Shown here piece by piece: positions 205-10,084 of a stretch of DNA of 64,000 bases (position 1 is the first letter of the stretch; each line of letters opens with the position of its first letter). The notes beneath the pieces are model-generated. The model was not told the DNA's origin, ran no database searches, and saw only the letters and a program-made list of their open reading frames with translations. The stretch covers positions 112,443 through 176,442 of the forward strand of contig JACPQY010000060.1 in the NCBI GenBank assembly GCA_016190245.1, given 5' to 3'. A program made the position numbers and the translations under genes. The DNA comes from Nitrospirota bacterium (GTDB taxonomy: Bacteria > JACPQY01).

Positions 205-1353
205 GTGAACTCGGTTCTCGGGGCTAAAGGTCTCTTCGCTCTTGTGGCCGTCATTGTGGGACTACTCGCGTTCGCCAATGGGGCAAATGACAACTTCAAG
301 GGCGTGGCAACTCTCTTTGGCAGCGGCACCACCCGCTATCGCTCGGCCCTCGTGTGGGCCGCGGCGACCACGCTGGCGGGTTCGGTGTGCTCCTTCCTCT
401 TGGCAGGAGAGCTCATGCTCGTGTTCAGTGGAAAGGGCATCGTCCCGAATGAGCTCGTCGGCCAGCCTGGCTTCCTGTCCGCTGTCGGCGCGGGTGCTGC
501 GGGCTCGGTCCTCCTGGCCACACGTTTCGGCTTCCCCATCTCCACGACTCACGCGCTGGTCGGCGGGCTTGTTGGAGGGGGTCTGGTTGCCTCAAGCGGG
601 CAAGTCCAATTCGCGGCACTTGCAGGAACCTTCGTATTGCCCTTGATTGCAGGCCCGATCGCCGCCTTGGGTCTGACCTTTATCGTCTACGGGCTGGGCA
701 CGCGGATCCGTCGCTGGATGGGCATTTCGAAAGAGTTCTGCGTGTGCGTCGGGCGCGAGGAGCAGGTGGTGGCGGTGGGCCTGAACCCGGCAGGAGAGGG
801 CTACGCAGCAGCTCGGAGCCTGTTCACCGTGCGTGCCGACCAGCCGACGCGCTGCCACGAACGCTATCAGGGGGAGTTTGTCGGCCTGGGTGTACAGTCC
901 ATCCTCAACGGTGTCCATTTCTTCTCGTCTGGAGCGGTCGGTTTCGCCCGGGGTCTGAACGATACGCCCAAGATCGCCGCCCTCCTGATGGTGGCGGGTG
1001 CGCTCCGCCCCGAGATGTCGGCCTTGGCGGTCGCGTTGGTGATGGCCTTGGGTGGCCTCGTGGCCGCTCGCCGCGTGGCGCACACCATGAGTCAGAGAAT
1101 TACCGAGATGAATCACGGCCAGGGACTTGCCGGCAATCTGGTTACGGCGGCGCTCGTGGTCTTGGCGTCGCGTTGGGGAATGCCGGTCTCCACGACACAC
1201 GTCTCGGTCGGTTCGCTCCTGGGTGTCGGGGTTGTTTCACACAAGGCCCGCTGGGCGATGATCCGCCAGATCTTGGTTGCCTGGATTGTCACGCTGCCCG
1301 TGGCTGCGGGGCTCTCCGCGGCCACGTATTGTTTGTGGCACAGTTTGAGCTAG
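205..1353 (+). CDS. PiT-family inorganic phosphate (possibly arsenate) permease
   Basis: A 382-residue integral membrane protein with about ten hydrophobic segments. Both halves carry the PiT family signatures: GANDNFKG near residue 26 with PISTTHA near residue 112 in the first half, and GLNDTPK plus PVSTTH in the second. PiT carriers import phosphate with a cation across the inner membrane and cannot fully exclude arsenate. The start is GTG at 205. The stop lies 10 bases before the radical SAM-ArsM gene, so the two are very likely co-transcribed; PiT-type carriers also occur in described arsenosugar gene clusters. The family call is firm. Whether the physiological substrate is phosphate or an arsenic oxyanion is inference from context. 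Confidence 0.93.
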   Translation: MNSVLGAKGLFALVAVIVGLLAFANGANDNFKGVATLFGSGTTRYRSALVWAAATTLAGSVCSFLLAGELMLVFSGKGIVPNELVGQPGFLSAVGAGAAGSVLLATRFGFPISTTHALVGGLVGGGLVASSGQVQFAALAGTFVLPLIAGPIAALGLTFIVYGLGTRIRRWMGISKEFCVCVGREEQVVAVGLNPAGEGYAAARSLFTVRADQPTRCHERYQGEFVGLGVQSILNGVHFFSSGAVGFARGLNDTPKIAALLMVAGALRPEMSALAVALVMALGGLVAARRVAHTMSQRITEMNHGQGLAGNLVTAALVVLASRWGMPVSTTHVSVGSLLGVGVVSHKARWAMIRQILVAWIVTLPVAAGLSAATYCLWHSLS

Positions 1354-1363
1354 GGAGGTTGTC

Positions 1364-4021
1364 ATGAAAGAAATCGGAGAAGCTTATTCGGACAAGACGA
1401 TTTGGCACATTCCCCCTCTCGTGGAGAAGCGGCACGGCGATACCTTCACATTTCTCGACCCGGAAGGCCCCAACTGGATCTCGACCGACGCGCGTGGTGC
1501 GAGCATTCTGCGTCTGGTCGATGGAAAGATCTCGTTCGCCGAACTGGTCCGGCGCTACTCCGAGCATTCAGGCACGGCGATGGCTCTCGCCTGGACACAT
1601 TGTTTCACCTTTCTGAAGGATGCCGCTCGGGCCGGGCTCGCCGGCCGTCAACCGTTTTCTAGCAGGCAAGCCTACGAGGGCCGAGCCGCCATCATCGAGC
1701 CGGCACTCCGGGAGATTTGGATTCATACGAACAATTCCTGCAATCTTGCGTGTGCCCATTGCCTTGTGAGCTCCGGACCCAAGGAGGACAAGGGGCTTGC
1801 ACTGGACCAGTGGAAAGGCATCTTGGCGCAAGCTTTCGATCTTGGCGCCAGGCAGGTCTATTTCACCGGTGGCGAGCCGTTCGTTCGGAAGGACATCTTC
1901 GACTTGATCGACACCGTCCTGGCCGATCCGGGGCGTAGGCTCGTGATCCTGACCAACGGGATGCTACTGAAGGGGAGGATTCTCGAACGGCTGAAGGACT
2001 ATTCAAGACGGCCTCTCACCCTCCAGATCAGTCTGGACGGACCGGATGCGGGGACGAACGATCCGATTCGAGGCAAGGGGAGTTTCGAGCCCATCGTCCA
2101 CGGCATCCGGGCTGGGCTCGACGCAGGTTTCCAGCCGATCGTCACCACCGTTGTAAACGAATCGAATCGGCGAAAGGTGGCGGGGGTGACCCGTCTGCTG
2201 GGCTCGCTGGGCGTGAAGAGTCACCACCTGCTTTGGCCTCATCTGCGTGGGCGCGCGGCGATGCTCAATGGAAACTTCACGCTGACGGCCGAGAAGTGCC
2301 TGGACGTGTTGCTGGAGGCTCGCGAGGCGGGGCGCGAGGCGGGTGTTGCAGTGGACAACTTCGAGTCCTTCCGAGCCCGAATCAGCGGTCGGCGGTTCGT
2401 CAGGATGGACCTGACCGGGGCCGGTGTCGAAAGCCTTTGCGTGTATTCGGATGGCCGAGTGTTCCCGTCCGCCTCGACGGCCGGCTACGCGAACCTATCG
2501 TGTGGCAATGCGCTTGAACTGCCCCTGTCGTCCATCTGGGAGAGCGCGAGGGTCCTCGCCGAGGCGAGACAGGCATCTGTGAAGGACAAGGTGATATGTC
2601 GTTCCTGCGAGTGGCGCTACATCTGCGGCGGAGGCGAGATCGAGCACGCATATGCCTATTCGCAGAACGGCAAGGCCCGTGCCGCCTACGTGGGGTTCAT
2701 GGAACACGACCCCTTCTGTGGTCTCTACAAAGGAGCGCTGGAGCGGATTCTTGTGGAGGAGTCCAAACCAAGGGGCCCTCTCAACAGGACGAGCGGGTTC
2801 AACTCGCCCGTGGTGTTTCGTTCGATGGGGGACTCCATCCTCTGCGGGCGGGAATCCGAACTGACGCGAGGCCGAAACGGCGTGGCCGTGGGTCATTCGT
2901 CTTGCCACTTGTCTGTGGACATCGCCCATCTTCGGGAAGACGTGCGGAACTACTACGCCGAGGCCGCCAAGGAGCCTCAGGAGGCTCTTTGCTGCCCGGT
3001 GAAATACGATTCCTCGGAGCTGAGCCACATCCCGAAGGACGTTATCGACCGATTCTACGGATGTGGCGGTCCCGTCGCCGCGGCACGGATCAAGGAGGGG
3101 GAGGTTGTCGTGGATTTCGGCAGCGGAGCGGGCATCGATTGTTTCATTGCCGCGCGGAAGGTCGGTTCCTCGGGCGGAGTGATCGGCGTGGACATGACCG
3201 ACGAGATGCTCGCGGTCGCTGAGCGGTGCAAGGCCGAAGTGGCCGGGCGGCTCGGGTACGACGTGGTCGAATTCCGAAAGGGCTTCCTCGAGGAAGTGCC
3301 CGTCCCCGACGCCACAGCCGACCTCGTCATGTCCAACTGCGTGGTGAATCTCTCGCCGGACAAGCGGAAAGTTTTCGCGGAGATGTGGCGCATTCTGAAG
3401 GACCATGGGCGCGTGGTGATCTCGGATATCGTCGCCGACAAGGCCGTTCCCTTGGACATGCAGCGAGACGTGGAGCTTCGGGGCGCCTGCATCAGCGGTG
3501 CGCTGACGGAAGAGGAGTTCCTCGCCTATCTCGAGCGTGCGGGATTCTATGGGTTGCGATTGATCGATAGGAAGCCTTGGAAGGAGGTCGAGGGTAGTCG
3601 CTTCTCCTCGGTCACGGTGGAAGGATACAAGTTCGAGAAGAAGGCGGGCTGCACCTACATCGGTCAGCGGGTGGTCTACTCCGGTCCGTTCAAGGCCGTG
3701 ATCGACGAGGAAGGGCACCTCTTTCCGCGAAACGAGCCGGTCGAAGTCTGCACCGACACGGCGGCCAAGCTCAGACATTCGCCGTATTCCGGAACATTTG
3801 TCGTGTTGGAACCAGATGGCTCAGAGGCCGAATCACCGTCCGGCGAGATCCTGTCCGAAAACCCTAACCCCGACCCTTCCGCCAAAGGCGGATTCCCTCT
3901 CCTCGAAGAGGACCTGCCCGTCCGCCGAGGCGGACAGGCGGGGAGGGATAGGGTGAGGAATTCTGAAGCCCTCGACTCGGGCTCTAGGATAGGCGCTAAG
4001 TGCGGTCCGGGTTGCTGCTGA
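1364..4021 (+). CDS. Radical SAM/SPASM protein fused to an ArsM-like arsenite methyltransferase
   Basis: An 885-residue protein; ATG follows the Shine-Dalgarno GGGAGG. Residues about 1-95 look like a PqqD-type domain. A radical SAM domain follows, with C126-x3-C130-x2-C133 for the [4Fe-4S] cluster and GGEP at 169-172. A SPASM-like region has C359, C380, C412, C415, C421 and C452. From about 525 there is a SAM methyltransferase with VDFGSGAGID (583-592) and the cysteines expected for As(III) binding: C543/C544, C567 in YGCGGP, C659 in SNCVVNLSPDK and C709 in GACISGAL. The tail ends CGPGCC. ArsM enzymes methylate arsenite; radical SAM partners add carbon groups to arsenic or modify peptides. 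Residues about 832-868 are encoded by a palindromic repeat and look like an in-frame insertion. Both catalytic halves appear intact; the combined product is unknown. Confidence 0.88.
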   Translation: MKEIGEAYSDKTIWHIPPLVEKRHGDTFTFLDPEGPNWISTDARGASILRLVDGKISFAELVRRYSEHSGTAMALAWTHCFTFLKDAARAGLAGRQPFSSRQAYEGRAAIIEPALREIWIHTNNSCNLACAHCLVSSGPKEDKGLALDQWKGILAQAFDLGARQVYFTGGEPFVRKDIFDLIDTVLADPGRRLVILTNGMLLKGRILERLKDYSRRPLTLQISLDGPDAGTNDPIRGKGSFEPIVHGIRAGLDAGFQPIVTTVVNESNRRKVAGVTRLLGSLGVKSHHLLWPHLRGRAAMLNGNFTLTAEKCLDVLLEAREAGREAGVAVDNFESFRARISGRRFVRMDLTGAGVESLCVYSDGRVFPSASTAGYANLSCGNALELPLSSIWESARVLAEARQASVKDKVICRSCEWRYICGGGEIEHAYAYSQNGKARAAYVGFMEHDPFCGLYKGALERILVEESKPRGPLNRTSGFNSPVVFRSMGDSILCGRESELTRGRNGVAVGHSSCHLSVDIAHLREDVRNYYAEAAKEPQEALCCPVKYDSSELSHIPKDVIDRFYGCGGPVAAARIKEGEVVVDFGSGAGIDCFIAARKVGSSGGVIGVDMTDEMLAVAERCKAEVAGRLGYDVVEFRKGFLEEVPVPDATADLVMSNCVVNLSPDKRKVFAEMWRILKDHGRVVISDIVADKAVPLDMQRDVELRGACISGALTEEEFLAYLERAGFYGLRLIDRKPWKEVEGSRFSSVTVEGYKFEKKAGCTYIGQRVVYSGPFKAVIDEEGHLFPRNEPVEVCTDTAAKLRHSPYSGTFVVLEPDGSEAESPSGEILSENPNPDPSAKGGFPLLEEDLPVRRGGQAGRDRVRNSEALDSGSRIGAKCGPGCC
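3861..3960. repeat. REP-like double palindrome inside the fusion gene's 3' end
   Basis: Two hairpins lie side by side: TCCGCC-AAA-GGCGGA at 3878-3892 and GTCCGCC-GA-GGCGGAC at 3920-3935, flanked by CCCTAACCC on one side and GGGATAGGGTGAGG on the other. The same TCCGCC/GGCGGA core recurs at 44574, 52909, 56386 and 62420. Here it is read in frame and encodes a low-complexity segment of the preceding protein. Confidence 0.7.
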
Positions 4022-4087: not shown

Positions 4088-5611
4088 ATGACGACGCAGC
4101 CCTCAGTCCTGCCCCAAGACCCCCACAACTTGGCGCTTGTCCAGAATGTGCATCCGCGCGGCTGGAAAAACCCCACGCCGGAAAAACGTTACAACCTCGT
4201 GGTCATTGGAGGGGGGACGGCGGGGCTTGTGACCGCCGCCGGTGCGGCCGGCTTGGGCGCGAAGGTGGCCTTGGTCGAGAAACACCTGCTCGGCGGCGAT
4301 TGTCTCAACTACGGCTGCGTCCCTTCGAAGGCGTTGATTCGCGCCTCACGGGCTGCGGCCGACGCGCGCGACGCAGGCGCCTTCGGGGTCACTGGCGCCA
4401 CGGGCGTGAGTGTGAACTTCCCCGCCGTGATGGAGCGCATGCGAGGGCTTCGCGCGCACATCAGCGAGCACGATTCGGCAACAAGGTTTCGGGGCCTGGG
4501 CGTGGATGTCTTCCTTGGCGAAGCACGGTTCAACGGAACCGATACGGTAGAGGTTGATGGTGCGAAGTTGCGGTTCCGTCGCGCGGTGATCGCCACGGGC
4601 GGTCGCGCCACCGGCCTCCCCATCCCCGGGCTCGCAAAGGCCGGTTTCCTCACCAACGAAACGATCTTCTCCCTTACCCGCCTCCCGGCCAGGCTCGCGG
4701 TCATCGGCGCGGGCCCTATTGGATGCGAAATGGCACAGGCCTTCCGGCGTTTTGGCTCGGAGGTCTGCTTGCTCGAGGCGGAAGGCCACGTCCTGCCGCG
4801 TGAAGACCGCGAGGCGGCTTCGATTGTGGCTGGGGCCTTCAAGCGGGACGGGATTCGATGCGTCTGTTCCGCGAAAATCTCTGACGTGGAGAGCCAAGGC
4901 GCAACAAAGACCATCAGGTACGCCTGCGATGGGACTCCGGTAACCCTCGAGGTGGATGAAGTTCTTGTCGGTGTCGGTCGATCACCCAACGTGGAGGGAC
5001 TAGGCTTGGAGTCGGCCGGTATCGAGTACGACACGAAACAGGGCATCAGGGTGGACGACCGGCTTAGGACGACCAACCCGCGCGTTCTTGCGGCCGGGGA
5101 TGTGTGTTCGCGCTACAAGTTCACGCACGCCGCCGACTTCATGGCCCGAATCGTCATCCAGAATGCGCTCTTCTTCGGCCGGGCGAAGGTAAGCGCCCTC
5201 ACGATTCCGTGGTGCACGTACACGGACCCCGAGATCGCCCACGTCGGACTCTACGAACACGAGGCTGAGTCCAGGAACATCATGACGCGGACCTTCACTC
5301 AGAAACTTGACGAAGTGGACCGCGCCGTTCTGGATGGGGAGTCGGATGGCTTCGTCAAGGTTCTCATCCAAGAGGGCACCGACAGAATCCTCGGCGCCAC
5401 GATCGTGGCGAGGCACGCCGGGGAAATGATTTCGGAAATCACGCTGGCGATGACCGGCAAGCTCGGCCTGAAAACCATCGCCGGCACGATCCACCCATAC
5501 CCCACTCAGGCCGAGGCCATACGGAAGGTCGGTGACGCTTACAATCGGACGAGGCTGACGCCGTTCCTCAAGGGTCTGTTTGCCCGCTGGTTGGCGTTCA
5601 TGAGACGATAA
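4088..5611 (+). CDS. MerA-like FAD-dependent pyridine nucleotide-disulfide oxidoreductase
   Basis: A 507-residue class I flavoprotein disulfide reductase. It has the FAD Rossmann motif VVIGGGTAGL (38-47), the redox pair C72-x4-C77 in GGDCLNYGCVPSK, the NAD(P)H motif VIGAGPIGCEMAQ, the second FAD motif ending AAGDVC, and the dimer-interface HPYPT near the C-terminus. It lacks the N-terminal metal-binding NmerA domain and the C-terminal vicinal cysteines of true mercuric reductase, and it ends in a hydrophobic-basic tail (LFARWLAFMRR) typical of the membrane-associated MerA-like group. Genes of this type occur beside ArsM/ArsS genes in arsenosugar clusters. It begins 66 bases after the radical SAM-ArsM gene with GAGGAGG at its ribosome binding site. 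The disulfide reductase fold is certain; the substrate is not. Confidence 0.9.
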   Translation: MTTQPSVLPQDPHNLALVQNVHPRGWKNPTPEKRYNLVVIGGGTAGLVTAAGAAGLGAKVALVEKHLLGGDCLNYGCVPSKALIRASRAAADARDAGAFGVTGATGVSVNFPAVMERMRGLRAHISEHDSATRFRGLGVDVFLGEARFNGTDTVEVDGAKLRFRRAVIATGGRATGLPIPGLAKAGFLTNETIFSLTRLPARLAVIGAGPIGCEMAQAFRRFGSEVCLLEAEGHVLPREDREAASIVAGAFKRDGIRCVCSAKISDVESQGATKTIRYACDGTPVTLEVDEVLVGVGRSPNVEGLGLESAGIEYDTKQGIRVDDRLRTTNPRVLAAGDVCSRYKFTHAADFMARIVIQNALFFGRAKVSALTIPWCTYTDPEIAHVGLYEHEAESRNIMTRTFTQKLDEVDRAVLDGESDGFVKVLIQEGTDRILGATIVARHAGEMISEITLAMTGKLGLKTIAGTIHPYPTQAEAIRKVGDAYNRTRLTPFLKGLFARWLAFMRR

Positions 5612-5749: not shown

Positions 5750-7879
5750 ATGAGACTCGACGACAAGAAGATCCTGGTTTTCGGCCCACTCATGTATGTT
5801 TCGAACCGCCGTGGCAACGCCGATGAGAGGCTGAGCGAGCCGAAAGGCCTCACCTGGTACGACACACGAATGGTGCGCACATTTGATCTTCGCATCAACG
5901 GTGAAATCCCGAACCTTCTGACGACCGAAGAGCCGCAGCCGAACCTCAGGCGATTCGGTCTCACCCTGACGGATCGTACATCGGCGGGGCTCTTCCAGCA
6001 TCCGCGCCATTTCGTCCACATCACGAGGACGCAGTTTCTTGACGCGGCCTTCGTGGACGCGCTCGAAATTCGGAATTTCACACCACGGCCCGTTCCGATC
6101 CATATTCGCTACCAATGGAGCGCGGACTTCGCCGACGTCTCCGAGATTCGCCAGCCGGGGCTCCACGATGGGGGGGGTCGGCGCGTTGTCGTGGAGCGGC
6201 TAGGGTCCGGCGTGCGACTCGCGTATCGAGGACACGACGCCAGGACGTACTTCTGTGACATCTTGATGTCTCATCCAGCGGCCAGCGTGCGTGCCGATGG
6301 TGGCCGCGTTCGCGTCGCCTTGGCTTCGCGCGGGATCATGCGACTCTCCATCGAAATCCGCGCGGGAGCGGAAGCCGGCAGGCGGCTGACCGGCCGAAGG
6401 AAAGAGGAGCCCCGCACCGACGGGGCCTCCATACCTCTGCGCCTTCGCGCCCTCGAGCGGCAGCGTGACAAGTGGTTCGACGGAACGGCGACTATCGAGA
6501 GCGACAACCCCGCCCTGGACCGCGAACTCGAACGCGCCCTCGACGACGTACGGTGCTTGGACCTTCCCCTCGATGGCTTATCCGTCCCCTCTGCCGGTGT
6601 TCCACTGTTTCACGCTCCCTTTGGGCGAGACATGATCCTCACGGCATTCTCTCTGCTTCCGTTCCGGCCGCAGATGGCAAGGGAGGTTCTGCTCTTCCTG
6701 GCCGAGCGACAGGGCCGTGTGACCGACGTTGTCCGAGAGGAAGAGCCGGGCAAGATCCTCCACGAACTCCGCCTGGGGGAACTGGCTGGAGCCGGCAAGG
6801 TGCCGCACAACCCCTACTATGGAAGCATCGACGTCTCGCTGCTTTTCGTTTCCCTCCTCCACGAGTACTTCCTCTGGACGGGAGACGAAGGAACCGTTCG
6901 CAATCTCGCGCCGGCGCTCGCCCGCGCCTTGGAGTGGGCTGAGGTGCATGGCGACGCGGACGGCGATGGTTGGATCGAATACGACCGTCTGCCGGGGCGA
7001 GGACTCGTCCACAAGGGATGGAAAGACAGTCGGGACAGCCTGACGGACGAGAGGGGGAGGTCCCCTCGGCCGCCCATCCGACTTGTCGAGGTTCAGGGGT
7101 ATTGGGTGGATGCTCTCCGCCGTTCATCAGAACTCTTCGGAGCTTTAGGTGACACCCTGCGGGCATCGCGATGCGCGGTTCGGGGGCGCGAATTGCAGCG
7201 CCGTATCGAAAGCCAATTCAGCCTGCCCCGAACGCGCTACACCGCCCTCGCGCTGGATGGGGCCTATCGTCAGCTCCGCCTGATCACCTCGAACCCCGGC
7301 CATCTGCTCTTTTCAGGCGCCGTCGGCCGACGCGTTGCCCTTTCGATACGCGACCGTCTCTTCAAGCCCGACATGCATTCCGGCTGGGGGATTCGCACAC
7401 TTTCATCGGACGAAGCGGCGTATCACCCTCTTCACTACCACCGAGGGACCGTCTGGCCGCACGACAACGCCATCATCGCCTTCGGTCTGTCGCGATACGG
7501 GATGACCTCGGATGCCGCGTCGCTCTTCACGAGTCTTCGCGAAGCGGTGAGCTCCTTGCCGGGCCGGAGATGGCCTGAGCTGTTTTGCGGATTCGGCCGA
7601 ACAGATCACCCACTCCCCGTTCCCTACCCACTGGCCTGCGCGCCGCAGGCGTGGTCCGCAGCGTCGCTGTTCCTGATGCTCCGCGCGTCCATGGGCCTCT
7701 TTGCGGACGCGCCGGCGGGCCACCTCGAGCTCCGCAAACCCATCCTGCCGCCGGGGCTGACGCGTCTTTCGATTCGCGGCTTGCGAATCGGCCGATCGGT
7801 CGGAACGCTGTCCGTTTCCCGTGCCCGTTGTGAGTGGATTCGGCGCTCAGGCCCGAAGATTCGGCTCCGTAGGCTCTGA
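5750..7879 (+). CDS. Glycogen-debranching-type amylo-alpha-1,6-glucosidase family protein
   Basis: A 709-residue cytosolic protein. The first 200 residues match the GDE N-bis domain (GLTWYDTRMVRTFDLRING, then a beta-rich segment). From about 280 onward is an (alpha/alpha)6-barrel with FGRDMILTAFSLLPF, HKGWKDSRDSL, VEVQGYWVDAL and YHRGTVWPHDNAI, the hallmarks of the glucan debranching and GH15-like catalytic domain. Members cleave alpha-1,6 branches or trim oligosaccharides; many remain uncharacterised. The gene overlaps the 3' end of the convergent otsB by 33 bases, which places glucan or maltodextrin turnover next to trehalose synthesis. The start is ATG; a good Shine-Dalgarno is not obvious. 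Confidence 0.85.
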   Translation: MRLDDKKILVFGPLMYVSNRRGNADERLSEPKGLTWYDTRMVRTFDLRINGEIPNLLTTEEPQPNLRRFGLTLTDRTSAGLFQHPRHFVHITRTQFLDAAFVDALEIRNFTPRPVPIHIRYQWSADFADVSEIRQPGLHDGGGRRVVVERLGSGVRLAYRGHDARTYFCDILMSHPAASVRADGGRVRVALASRGIMRLSIEIRAGAEAGRRLTGRRKEEPRTDGASIPLRLRALERQRDKWFDGTATIESDNPALDRELERALDDVRCLDLPLDGLSVPSAGVPLFHAPFGRDMILTAFSLLPFRPQMAREVLLFLAERQGRVTDVVREEEPGKILHELRLGELAGAGKVPHNPYYGSIDVSLLFVSLLHEYFLWTGDEGTVRNLAPALARALEWAEVHGDADGDGWIEYDRLPGRGLVHKGWKDSRDSLTDERGRSPRPPIRLVEVQGYWVDALRRSSELFGALGDTLRASRCAVRGRELQRRIESQFSLPRTRYTALALDGAYRQLRLITSNPGHLLFSGAVGRRVALSIRDRLFKPDMHSGWGIRTLSSDEAAYHPLHYHRGTVWPHDNAIIAFGLSRYGMTSDAASLFTSLREAVSSLPGRRWPELFCGFGRTDHPLPVPYPLACAPQAWSAASLFLMLRASMGLFADAPAGHLELRKPILPPGLTRLSIRGLRIGRSVGTLSVSRARCEWIRRSGPKIRLRRL

Positions 7880-8668
7880 GACTGCTTCAGTGCACACCCG
7901 TTCAAGCAACTCCAGCACGCGGGCCGGATTGGCGAGACGATACTCGGCAGCGCTGGGCAGCGGTTTGCCCACTCGGACGGTGACAGCCTTCCCTCGAAGC
8001 GCACGGAAGGCGGCCTCGTCGCTCGTGTCATCGCCGATGTAGACGACGGCGGGTCGCCGCCACCGTCCGTTCCGGCTGATCAGAAGCTGCGACACGGCCC
8101 AGCCTTTGTCGATCCCCCTGGGGCCGACCTCGATCCCGTAGGCGTTTTCAGCCACCACGAGGCACCGGCGCCTGTCGAGCCGCCGAAGTCGCGCGCGCAC
8201 GATCTGAGCCACCTCGGTCCTTGCGGCCGGCGGCAGCAGTCGCGCCTGCACGCCGACGCAGCCCCACTTGTCCTCGATGATCAGATCGGGAAAGCGTGCC
8301 AAGTCCCGAAGCAGCGATCGATGCATGCGGCGGACAAGGGGCCGAAGCGCGCGCACACGGGGGTGCCATGTGGCTTTCCCCCCGGGCCGCTTGGTCTGAG
8401 CCCCGTACGCGCCCAGGTGCGTCAGGCCTCGAATCGGCAGCAGCCTGACCAACTGGGCTGCCGTCCGACCGCTGACCATGAAGACACGAACGTTCGAGAA
8501 CCTGACAAGCCTACGTAGCGCCTCGAGGACAGGCCTCGGAGTCCGCGCGTCTCCCGGCCGATCCTTCAGTTCCGCAAGCGTGCCGTCGTAGTCCAGACAG
8601 AGGAGGAGGGGGGTGCCGTGCCGCCGCGCCAAGCCGATCCGGGACACGATTCGGTCAATGTCGGCCAT
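7847..8668 (-). CDS. otsB: Trehalose-6-phosphate phosphatase
   Basis: A 273-residue HAD-superfamily phosphatase. Motif I is CLDYDGTLAEL (nucleophile Asp and general acid Asp), motif II is MVSGRTAAQL, and the Mg-binding motif is YIGDDTSDEAAF. It removes phosphate from trehalose-6-phosphate to release trehalose, a compatible solute and stress protectant. It follows otsA by 9 bases on the same strand, so the two form an operon in biosynthetic order. Its end overlaps the convergent debranching-enzyme gene. Length and motifs are normal for the family. Confidence 0.93.
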   Translation of the reverse strand: MADIDRIVSRIGLARRHGTPLLLCLDYDGTLAELKDRPGDARTPRPVLEALRRLVRFSNVRVFMVSGRTAAQLVRLLPIRGLTHLGAYGAQTKRPGGKATWHPRVRALRPLVRRMHRSLLRDLARFPDLIIEDKWGCVGVQARLLPPAARTEVAQIVRARLRRLDRRRCLVVAENAYGIEVGPRGIDKGWAVSQLLISRNGRWRRPAVVYIGDDTSDEAAFRALRGKAVTVRVGKPLPSAAEYRLANPARVLELLERVCTEAVSEPTEPNLRA

Positions 8669-8677
8669 GGGTGACTG

Positions 8678-10084
8678 TTACATGGAAGAGAGGCAGGCCT
8701 GCGCCCAATGCCTGAGGTCGTGGGCGGCGACCAACTCCCGCATTCTTCTCATGCGCCTGCGTTTTTCGGGGAGTGGCATCTCAAGGGCGGCGGCCAAGGT
8801 TTTCGCCACCTCTTGCGGGTTGTAGGGGTTGACGACGAGCGCGTCCGACATCTCCTCGACGGCCCCCGCGAACTCGCTCAAGACGAGGACCCCTCGCTCC
8901 TCCGGATGACAGGCCACATATTCCTTCGCCACGAGGTTCATGCCGTCTCTCAGGGGCGTAACCAGCGCCACGTCCGCCGCTCGGTAGTGCGCCGCCAGGC
9001 TGGGAAGAGCCAGCATCCGGAAATAGTAGTGGATCGGGACCCACCCCGAGCGCGAGAAGCGCCCGTTGATCCGACCGATGGACCGGTCGATGTCCTCTTT
9101 CATCCGGCGGTATTCCCCCACCCGCGTTCGGCTCGGCACCATCACCTGGAGGAAGACGAACCGCTCGTGATACGCTGGATTCTGTTCAAGGAAGACCTCG
9201 ATGGCCTCCAGCCTTTCCAGCACCCCCTTCGTGTAGTCGAGCCGGTCCACCGCGAGCGCCAGGTGACGCGCCCGGAGCTGGCGCCTCAGTTCACGCACGT
9301 GCTGTTTCACCTCCGCGGAGTCCGCGAGCTGAGCCAGCGCCTCCGCGTCGACGCCCATGGGGAAGGCCCGCACCTTGACCCGCCTGTCCTCGAGCCGCAC
9401 CGTGCCTTTCTTTCGGAGGACCTTCAGCCCCAGGACCTTGTTCACGCATTGCAGGAAGTTCCTCGCGTACTCGACGGTGTGGAAGCCGATCACGTTGCTG
9501 TCCAGGAGCCCCAGGAGCAGTTCGGCGCGCCACGGGAAGACGGCGAAGACTTCCCTTGCGGGAAAGGGCACATGCCAGAAGAAGAGGATCCTGGCTCGCT
9601 TTCGCCGGGTTCGGATCATGTGCGGAACCAGCGCCAATTGGTAGTCGTGCACCCAGATGACATCTCCGGGCCGGTACTCATCCAGGACGGCCCGCGCGAT
9701 CTTCTGGTTGACTTGGAGGAACGTCTCCCACTCCTCCGTGCTGAACTTGCATCGGCCGATGAAATAGTGGGCGAGGGGCCAAAGGGCGTTGTTCGACAGC
9801 CCCGAATAGAAACCGGAGACCTCTTTGTCGGTGAGATGGACCAGCCGGAGCGCGTAGCGTGGAGCCTCGATCGGCACCTCGACTCGGCGCAGGCCCCGCC
9901 GATCGCCCCCCGTGTCCCCCCACGCGATCCACAGGCCGCCGCGCTCCTGCATGATCGGATCGAGGCCCGCCACGAGACCTCCCACCGCGCGCTCGGCCTT
10001 AAGCTCCGTCGGCGCGCCGCGAACGCTGTAGGGCGCCCGGCTGGACACCACAATCAACCGTTGGTCCTTGGGCGGCGCCGGCAC
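8678..10084 (-). CDS. otsA: Trehalose-6-phosphate synthase (GT20)
   Basis: A 468-residue GT-B glycosyltransferase. It begins with the strand LIVVSSRAPYSV and AVGGLVAGLDPIM at the donor loop, then HDYQLALVPHMIR, HVPFPAREVF and SNVIGFHTVEYARNF, and in the second half DRLDYTKGVLERLEAIE, LRDGMNLVAKEYVA and LSEFAGAVEEMSDALVVNP. These are OtsA landmarks: the enzyme joins a UDP- or ADP-glucose to glucose-6-phosphate. Glucosylglycerol-phosphate synthase shares the fold and cannot be fully excluded, but the otsB partner favours trehalose. The gene is divergent from the merR-type regulator, with a shared 114-base upstream region. Confidence 0.92.
   Translation of the reverse strand: MPAPPKDQRLIVVSSRAPYSVRGAPTELKAERAVGGLVAGLDPIMQERGGLWIAWGDTGGDRRGLRRVEVPIEAPRYALRLVHLTDKEVSGFYSGLSNNALWPLAHYFIGRCKFSTEEWETFLQVNQKIARAVLDEYRPGDVIWVHDYQLALVPHMIRTRRKRARILFFWHVPFPAREVFAVFPWRAELLLGLLDSNVIGFHTVEYARNFLQCVNKVLGLKVLRKKGTVRLEDRRVKVRAFPMGVDAEALAQLADSAEVKQHVRELRRQLRARHLALAVDRLDYTKGVLERLEAIEVFLEQNPAYHERFVFLQVMVPSRTRVGEYRRMKEDIDRSIGRINGRFSRSGWVPIHYYFRMLALPSLAAHYRAADVALVTPLRDGMNLVAKEYVACHPEERGVLVLSEFAGAVEEMSDALVVNPYNPQEVAKTLAAALEMPLPEKRRRMRRMRELVAAHDLRHWAQACLSSM

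Follow-up and report, generated by a model that had tools for sequence, protein, structure and literature searches.

The 64,000-nucleotide stretch of Nitrospirota bacterium contig JACPQY010000060.1 analysed here (the window) carries near its start a single gene in which a radical S-adenosylmethionine (SAM) enzyme with a SPASM domain is joined to an ArsM-type arsenite methyltransferase (Table 1). The gene lies between a PiT transporter gene, which ends immediately before it, and the gene for an FAD-dependent oxidoreductase (FADox). The 885-residue product begins with a PqqD/RRE-like domain followed by the radical SAM core, the SPASM domain, a linker and the ArsM half. This one-frame layout had been proposed by an earlier, sequence-only reading and was borne out by Pfam and NCBIfam matches and by a predicted structure.

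The radical SAM domain (PF04055) was matched over residues 123-263 with 80.5 bits against a cut-off of 29.5 (E 2e-22) and holds the CxxxCxxC motif that had been claimed for it, C126/C130/C133, within NSCNLACAHC, as well as TGGEP at residues 168-172. The SPASM match (residues 356-416) reached 20.4 bits, slightly below the Pfam cut-off of 21.5, while PqqD was matched weakly in the window's protein (residues 31-71, E 0.077) and above cut-off in its homologue at locus L018 (33.3 vs 23.4 bits). In NCBIfam the radical SAM half resembled heme b synthase, NirJ2 and Rv1681-type radical SAM proteins, and among the matches listed no NCBIfam model covered the fusion above cut-off.

An AlphaFold2 model of the fusion (mean pLDDT 78, pTM 0.72) had its low-confidence parts in the linker and the tail. 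Structure comparison, alongside which Foldseek was also run, aligned residues 17-470 with residues 2-450 of the peptide maturase CteB (Z 31.5) and residues 12-482 with TigE (Z 26.1), the predicted fold of the SPASM region matching CteB and anSME. Because the model follows full-length RRE-radical SAM-SPASM maturases from residue 17 onward, the N-terminal domain is best read as a predicted RRE/PqqD fold. The C-terminal half of the model was ArsM-like, with residues 546-821 matching ArsM 4fr0 (Z 27.4 over 271 residues).

The methyltransferase domain itself was matched by Pfam at residues 576-727 (E 4e-27), and the best NCBIfam match of this half was NF008823 (E 2e-70), with 237.2 bits against a curated cut-off of 263. 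That cut-off was also narrowly missed by standalone ArsM relatives such as those at L025 and L027, and the half is called an ArsM-like domain here because its score falls short in the same way as theirs. In a PDB sequence search it was similar to Cyanidioschyzon ArsM (CmArsM, PDB 4kw7/4fr0; E 5e-39), and the arsenic ligands C72, C174 and C224 of that enzyme sit under C567, C659 and C709 of the fusion, the three cysteines that had been named from the sequence as As(III)-binding. The CGPGCC tail is present as described and is preserved downstream of an interspersed genomic repeat of about 70 bp that makes up the preceding stretch (about residues 835-870).

Table 1. Features of the fusion locus and of compared loci (positions are those of the window unless a locus number is given)
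Feature	Position	Strand	Basis or remark
PiT/PHO4-family phosphate (possibly arsenate) transporter, opening the operon-like run	205..1353	+	Pfam PHO4, E 1e-58
Radical SAM/SPASM-ArsM fusion protein, 885 aa	1364..4021	+	one unbroken 885-codon reading frame
PqqD/RRE-like N-terminal domain, about residues 17-95	1412..1648	+	Pfam PqqD; structure match to CteB
Radical SAM core, about residues 114-300	1703..2263	+	Pfam PF04055
CX3CX2C [4Fe-4S]/SAM motif, C126-C130-C133	1739..1762	+	invariant in 26/26 fusions
SPASM domain, about residues 345-455 (C359, C380, C412, C415, C421, C452)	2396..2728	+	Pfam SPASM
Linker between the domains, carrying C494 and the invariant C514	2771..2935	+	alignment of 26 fusions
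ArsM-type arsenite methyltransferase domain and C-terminal subdomain, about residues 525-820	2936..3823	+	NF008823, CmArsM, 4fr0 structure match
C567, predicted As(III) ligand (CmArsM C72)	3062..3064	+	PDB sequence alignment; invariant
C659, predicted As(III) ligand (CmArsM C174)	3338..3340	+	PDB sequence alignment; invariant
C709, predicted As(III) ligand (CmArsM C224)	3488..3490	+	PDB sequence alignment; invariant
Interspersed genomic repeat, in frame within the fusion tail	3894..3965	+	partial matches at 23 other sites of this genome
CGPGCC cysteine tail	4001..4018	+	Cys-rich ends similar in most full-length relatives
PRK06370-type FAD pyridine-nucleotide-disulphide oxidoreductase (MerA/Lpd-like; FADox)	4088..5611	+	NF004991, 820 bits vs 620
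Short radical SAM-ArsM fusions	L026:6134-7939, L029:3259-5136, L030:6062-7876, L031:447-2222, L087:7962-9785		about 600 aa
Canonical ArsS fused to ArsM	L145:9018-11003, L146:7508-9463, L148:5471-7267		both domain orders
B12-binding radical SAM gene adjoining the fusion	L011:2465-3601, L018:10339-11823, L019:10351-11832, L085:10272-11813		
Long fusions with added C-terminal region	L022:3009-6161, L024:3804-6914, L107:1357-4407, L108:12-3101		1016-1050 aa in total

Homologues of the long fusion were sought by scanning 84,980 species genomes and searching 290 others. An intact single frame with the same domain order was found in 25 genomes other than the window's own, with 29-72% identity, the carriers including Nitrospirota, Armatimonadota, Acidobacteriota, Planctomycetota, Omnitrophota, Gemmatimonadota, Thermodesulfobacteriota and archaeal Methanobacteriota. 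The closest homologue (72% identical) was from a sister genome, G024, and at locus L085 a frameshift divides the protein between two neighbouring frames. An assembly artefact, which the sequence-only reading had held open as a way to be wrong, is therefore ruled out, as is a chance frame. Across the alignment of the window's fusion with the 25 single-frame homologues, C126/C130/C133, C567/C659/C709 and the linker cysteine C514 were invariant (26/26) and TGGEP was also kept. C514 had no counterpart at the same position in the standalone ArsM relatives inspected. The SPASM ligands C412/C415/C421/C452, belonging to the second auxiliary cluster, were all present in 16/26, all absent in 9/26 (L010, L012, L014, L015, L016, L022, L024, L107 and L108) and mostly lost in one, and in a tree these losses mapped to at least two separate clades while the radical SAM motif was invariant throughout. 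No standalone relative of the radical SAM half was closer than about 22-27% identity (L149-L153). A tree of the ArsM halves required up to five label changes for the long fusions, and with its weak inner branches a common origin of the ArsM halves of the long fusions and of a shorter fusion type described below was neither supported nor excluded.

Four of the long fusions (L022, L024, L107 and L108) form a clade with an added C-terminal region, the two named members being Thermodesulfobacteriota. Within that region a match to MbdU, a metal-binding double selenoprotein, was found in L022 and L024, and DUF5714 was matched in L022.

The genes beside the fusion recurred across genomes. PiT adjoined the fusion in L013, L014, L016, G024 and G200 as well as in the window, and also adjoined ArsM/ArsS pairs in Verrucomicrobiota. 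At L014 the order was patatin, FADox, TVP38, fusion, a fused TIGR04283/TIGR04282 protein with both glycosyltransferase halves above cut-off, and PiT, these two families being named arsenosugar biosynthesis glycosyltransferases by NCBI. The order was PiT-fusion-TVP38-FADox in G024 and G200, and TVP38-FADox-...-GT4283-fusion-GT4282 in G254, while glycosyltransferase (GT) genes adjoined the fusion in G261, G259 and L023 and FADox did so in G053. In total, at least one of the five partners PiT, TVP38, FADox, TIGR04283 and TIGR04282 lay near the fusion at 13 of 27 loci (the 26 aligned fusions and the partial L023). Canonical clusters were built from the same genes, in the orders ArsS-TVP38-FADox-GT (L139, L140, L141), FADox-TVP38-ArsM-PiT-ArsS (L047), ArsM-PiT-GTs-ArsS (L084) and ArsM-ArsS-FADox-TVP38 (L027), and the PRK06370 subfamily of the window's FADox also adjoins ArsS there. 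The common partners indicate that the fusion takes the slot of ArsM and ArsS, and no standalone ArsM or ArsS was found in the rest of the window's genome.

ArsS acts alongside ArsM at the beginning of arsenosugar synthesis (PMC8552651) and adenosylates arsenic through radical SAM chemistry (PMC12159101). The fusion shares arsenite methylation and a radical SAM step with the ArsM and ArsS pair (NF038099/NF008823 and TIGR04167), and differs from it in being one polypeptide, in adding the RRE and SPASM domains and in having TGGEP where ArsS has TGGAPE. A TIGR04167 search of the window's genome (G000) gave no match at E 1e-70, and fusion homologues were matched over the core alone, with about 44-71 bits where the cut-off is 300. 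In a profile-profile comparison residues 110-258 of the fusion matched residues 31-180 of ArsS (probability 98.7, E 2e-16) and nothing further was aligned. By these profiles the radical SAM half is clearly kin to ArsS at the superfamily level and is placed outside the ArsS family, with scores below the TIGR04167 cut-off and the C-terminal half of that model unmatched. The ArsM half likewise falls outside the NF038099 arsenosugar clade. The standalone ArsM closest to it, with 62% identity, comes from L025, where its gene lies next to a true ArsS, and the standalone ArsM of L027 is also encoded beside ArsS.

The lack of a characterised counterpart, as stated in the sequence-only reading, held for the SPASM type, but radical SAM-ArsM fusions as a class are broader than that reading had assumed. 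Canonical ArsS was found fused to ArsM in both orders with TIGR04283 next door (L145, L146, L148), and these proteins resemble the long fusion in carrying both a radical SAM enzyme and an ArsM on a single chain at such a locus, whereas their radical SAM part is a genuine ArsS (411 and 334 bits in L145 and L148 against the cut-off of 300). A third type, the short fusion, was found in Brocadiaceae, other Planctomycetota and Myxococcota (L026, L029-L034, L087). It has the same order in one frame and an ArsM half 52-58% identical, but its radical SAM part of about 290 aa lacks an RRE, has another cysteine-rich end, is below the ArsS cut-off and is not of the SPASM type. Genes like TIGR04282/TIGR04283 adjoin the short-fusion loci L028, L030, L031, L033 and L034, and separate gene pairs related to this fusion were seen at L043 and L164. 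No description of the SPASM-type fusion, and no characterised counterpart of its layout, was found in a literature search that was largely without subscription papers, the original ArsS papers included. The SPASM-type fusion is apparently a new version of an already known arrangement, arrived at with another type of radical SAM protein.

Co-occurrence was analysed in the 290 genomes, 288 of which lie outside the window's family. Because the window's lineage offers one relative only (G024), the sample amounts in practice to a random background of bacteria unrelated to it. Above cut-off, ArsS was found in 46 of these genomes, TIGR04283 in 64 and the long fusion in 11. TIGR04283 was present in 9/11 fusion carriers against 55/279 other genomes (p 3e-5), and among ArsS-negative genomes in 9/11 against 23/233 (p 2e-7). 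Removal of G000 and G024 left these values at 2.7e-5 and 2.5e-7, respectively. In a tenth carrier, G259, TIGR04283 was slightly below cut-off and its gene was adjacent to the fusion. None of the 11 fusion carriers had ArsS. This exclusion was not significant over all 290 genomes (p 0.22), both genes being rare, and was significant within the TIGR04283 carriers (p 0.002), of which nine had the fusion only, 32 had ArsS and none had both; the phylogenetic pattern of the fusion and the ArsM and ArsS clusters was in this way near-exclusive. In the 17 further long-fusion genomes from the scan of species genomes TIGR04283 was above cut-off in 10 and ArsS in one.

The arsenosugar-type neighbours and the co-occurrence with TIGR04283 in genomes without ArsS suggest that the fusion is probably a bifunctional enzyme that takes over the tasks of both ArsM and ArsS within a pathway of the arsenosugar type, on a radical SAM scaffold of the peptide-maturase type and not on that of ArsS. 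The ArsM domains fused to canonical ArsS elsewhere, the position of the closest standalone ArsM beside ArsS and the invariance of the radical SAM motif and arsenic ligands were counted in favour of this replacement. Under such a scheme the ArsM half would convert arsenite to dimethylated As(III), held by C567/C659/C709, with SAM as the methyl donor, and the reduced [4Fe-4S] cluster of the radical SAM half would cleave a second SAM to a 5'-deoxyadenosyl radical. That half would then adenosylate dimethylarsenite as ArsS does, joining the radical to the dimethylated arsenic to give a 5'-deoxy-5'-dimethylarsinoyl nucleoside, from which downstream glycosyltransferases could make arsenosugars. The linker with its invariant C514 is a possible relay for the reactive arsenical between the two sites, and the idea put forward from the sequence, passage of a methylated arsenical to a radical SAM step, is supported. 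The RRE and SPASM domains may have been inherited from a peptide-maturase-like ancestor and retained as scaffold, with a dispensable auxiliary SPASM cluster.

Several observations weigh against replacement of ArsM and ArsS. The radical SAM half has the core fold of ArsS only, without the ArsS C-terminal domain, and its radical product may therefore differ. The arsenosugar-type cluster of TIGR04283/TIGR04282, ArsM and a radical SAM enzyme is present at the family level and not in the window's own genome, an 85% complete metagenome-assembled genome (MAG) with neither glycosyltransferase family above cut-off, although the sister genome G024 carries both. Seven of the 17 further fusion genomes, comprising Armatimonadota, Acidobacteriota, Gemmatimonadota, one Planctomycetota and two Nitrospirota, had no TIGR04283 above cut-off, and 23 genomes carried TIGR04283 while lacking both ArsS and the fusion, which makes this marker imperfectly specific; most of those inspected hold a lone glycosyltransferase with no partner genes. 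The co-occurrence tests treat genomes as independent, ignoring kinship, and MAGs are incomplete. A conserved B12-binding radical SAM gene adjoins the fusion at four loci, in Nitrospirota and one Armatimonadota genome mostly without TIGR04283. With these four and the other carriers that lack TIGR04283, products may differ between lineages, and an alternative end product is possible where the B12-radical SAM gene is linked. On this evidence it is conceivable, if rather unlikely, that the SPASM-type half places another group, such as a SAM-derived aminocarboxypropyl or a small-molecule or lipid carbon, on methylated arsenic and that the cluster tailors the product. The un-ArsS-like character of the half beyond the core and the clusters at L011, L018 and L019, with the B12-radical SAM neighbour and no TIGR04283, would be consistent with this, and ArsL is a precedent as a radical SAM enzyme making another C-As bond (PMC8552651). 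ArsL and ArsM of arsinothricin biosynthesis also resemble the two halves in acting on arsenic, but ArsL (NF040542) is a separate protein of a different radical SAM family, and its RCCLKC motif and a B12-binding domain (none at E 0.1 in Pfam) are absent from the window's fusion. Most carriers moreover lack ArsS yet have the glycosyltransferases and accessory genes typical of its clusters. The new organoarsenical once suggested as a possible product was not supported, the gene context pointing to a known arsenosugar-type pathway.

The sequence-only reading had also raised arsenic attachment to a peptide, in which a maturase for a ribosomally synthesized and post-translationally modified peptide would recruit a precursor through its RRE and the two halves would modify that precursor with arsenic or methyl. 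The complete CteB/TigE-like fold of the N-terminal half in the predicted model and the above-cut-off PqqD match in L018 accord with such a role. However, no conserved precursor peptide gene was found among 1,657 small open reading frames (ORFs) at 21 fusion loci, and every conserved small ORF there proved to be a shadow frame of a known or shared neighbouring gene such as PiT, TVP38 or FADox. The fusion also differs from CteB, TigE and anSME in its C-terminal ArsM domain and in its unconserved auxiliary-cluster ligands, and its neighbours are arsenosugar genes, making this role very improbable. Scarcely any more credible is detoxification by the ArsM half alone, with the radical SAM half vestigial or performing an unrelated reaction. 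ArsM by itself is a common resistance enzyme and the SPASM ligands are degraded in part of the family, yet the retention of CX3CX2C and TGGEP in 26/26 and the association with biosynthetic genes speak against it.

A broader scenario can be offered tentatively beside the proposed replacement. ArsM may have captured a radical SAM scaffold of the peptide-maturase type, which independently evolved C-As bond formation and displaced ArsS, with the arsenic handed over within the chain through the invariant linker cysteine; in the B12-radical-SAM-linked lineages the product that it feeds may lie outside the known arsenosugars.

To our knowledge, enzymes that create carbon-arsenic bonds by a route other than methyl transfer are few. 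If the replacement is correct, the fusion is a non-orthologous one-piece substitute for ArsM and ArsS, and arsenosugar-type metabolism would reach many uncultured lineages, among them Archaea, Nitrospirota, Planctomycetota and Acidobacteriota, that are overlooked by searches with ArsS models. The fusion also offers a single expressible protein for studying how a toxic arsenical is passed from one SAM-dependent site to another, and its family is an example of a SPASM auxiliary cluster being lost while the family endures.

The genes downstream of FADox in the window (5750-10084) look unrelated to arsenic and by inspection only include, on the minus strand, a trehalose-phosphatase-like gene (7847-8668) and a trehalose-6-phosphate synthase-like gene (8678-10084).

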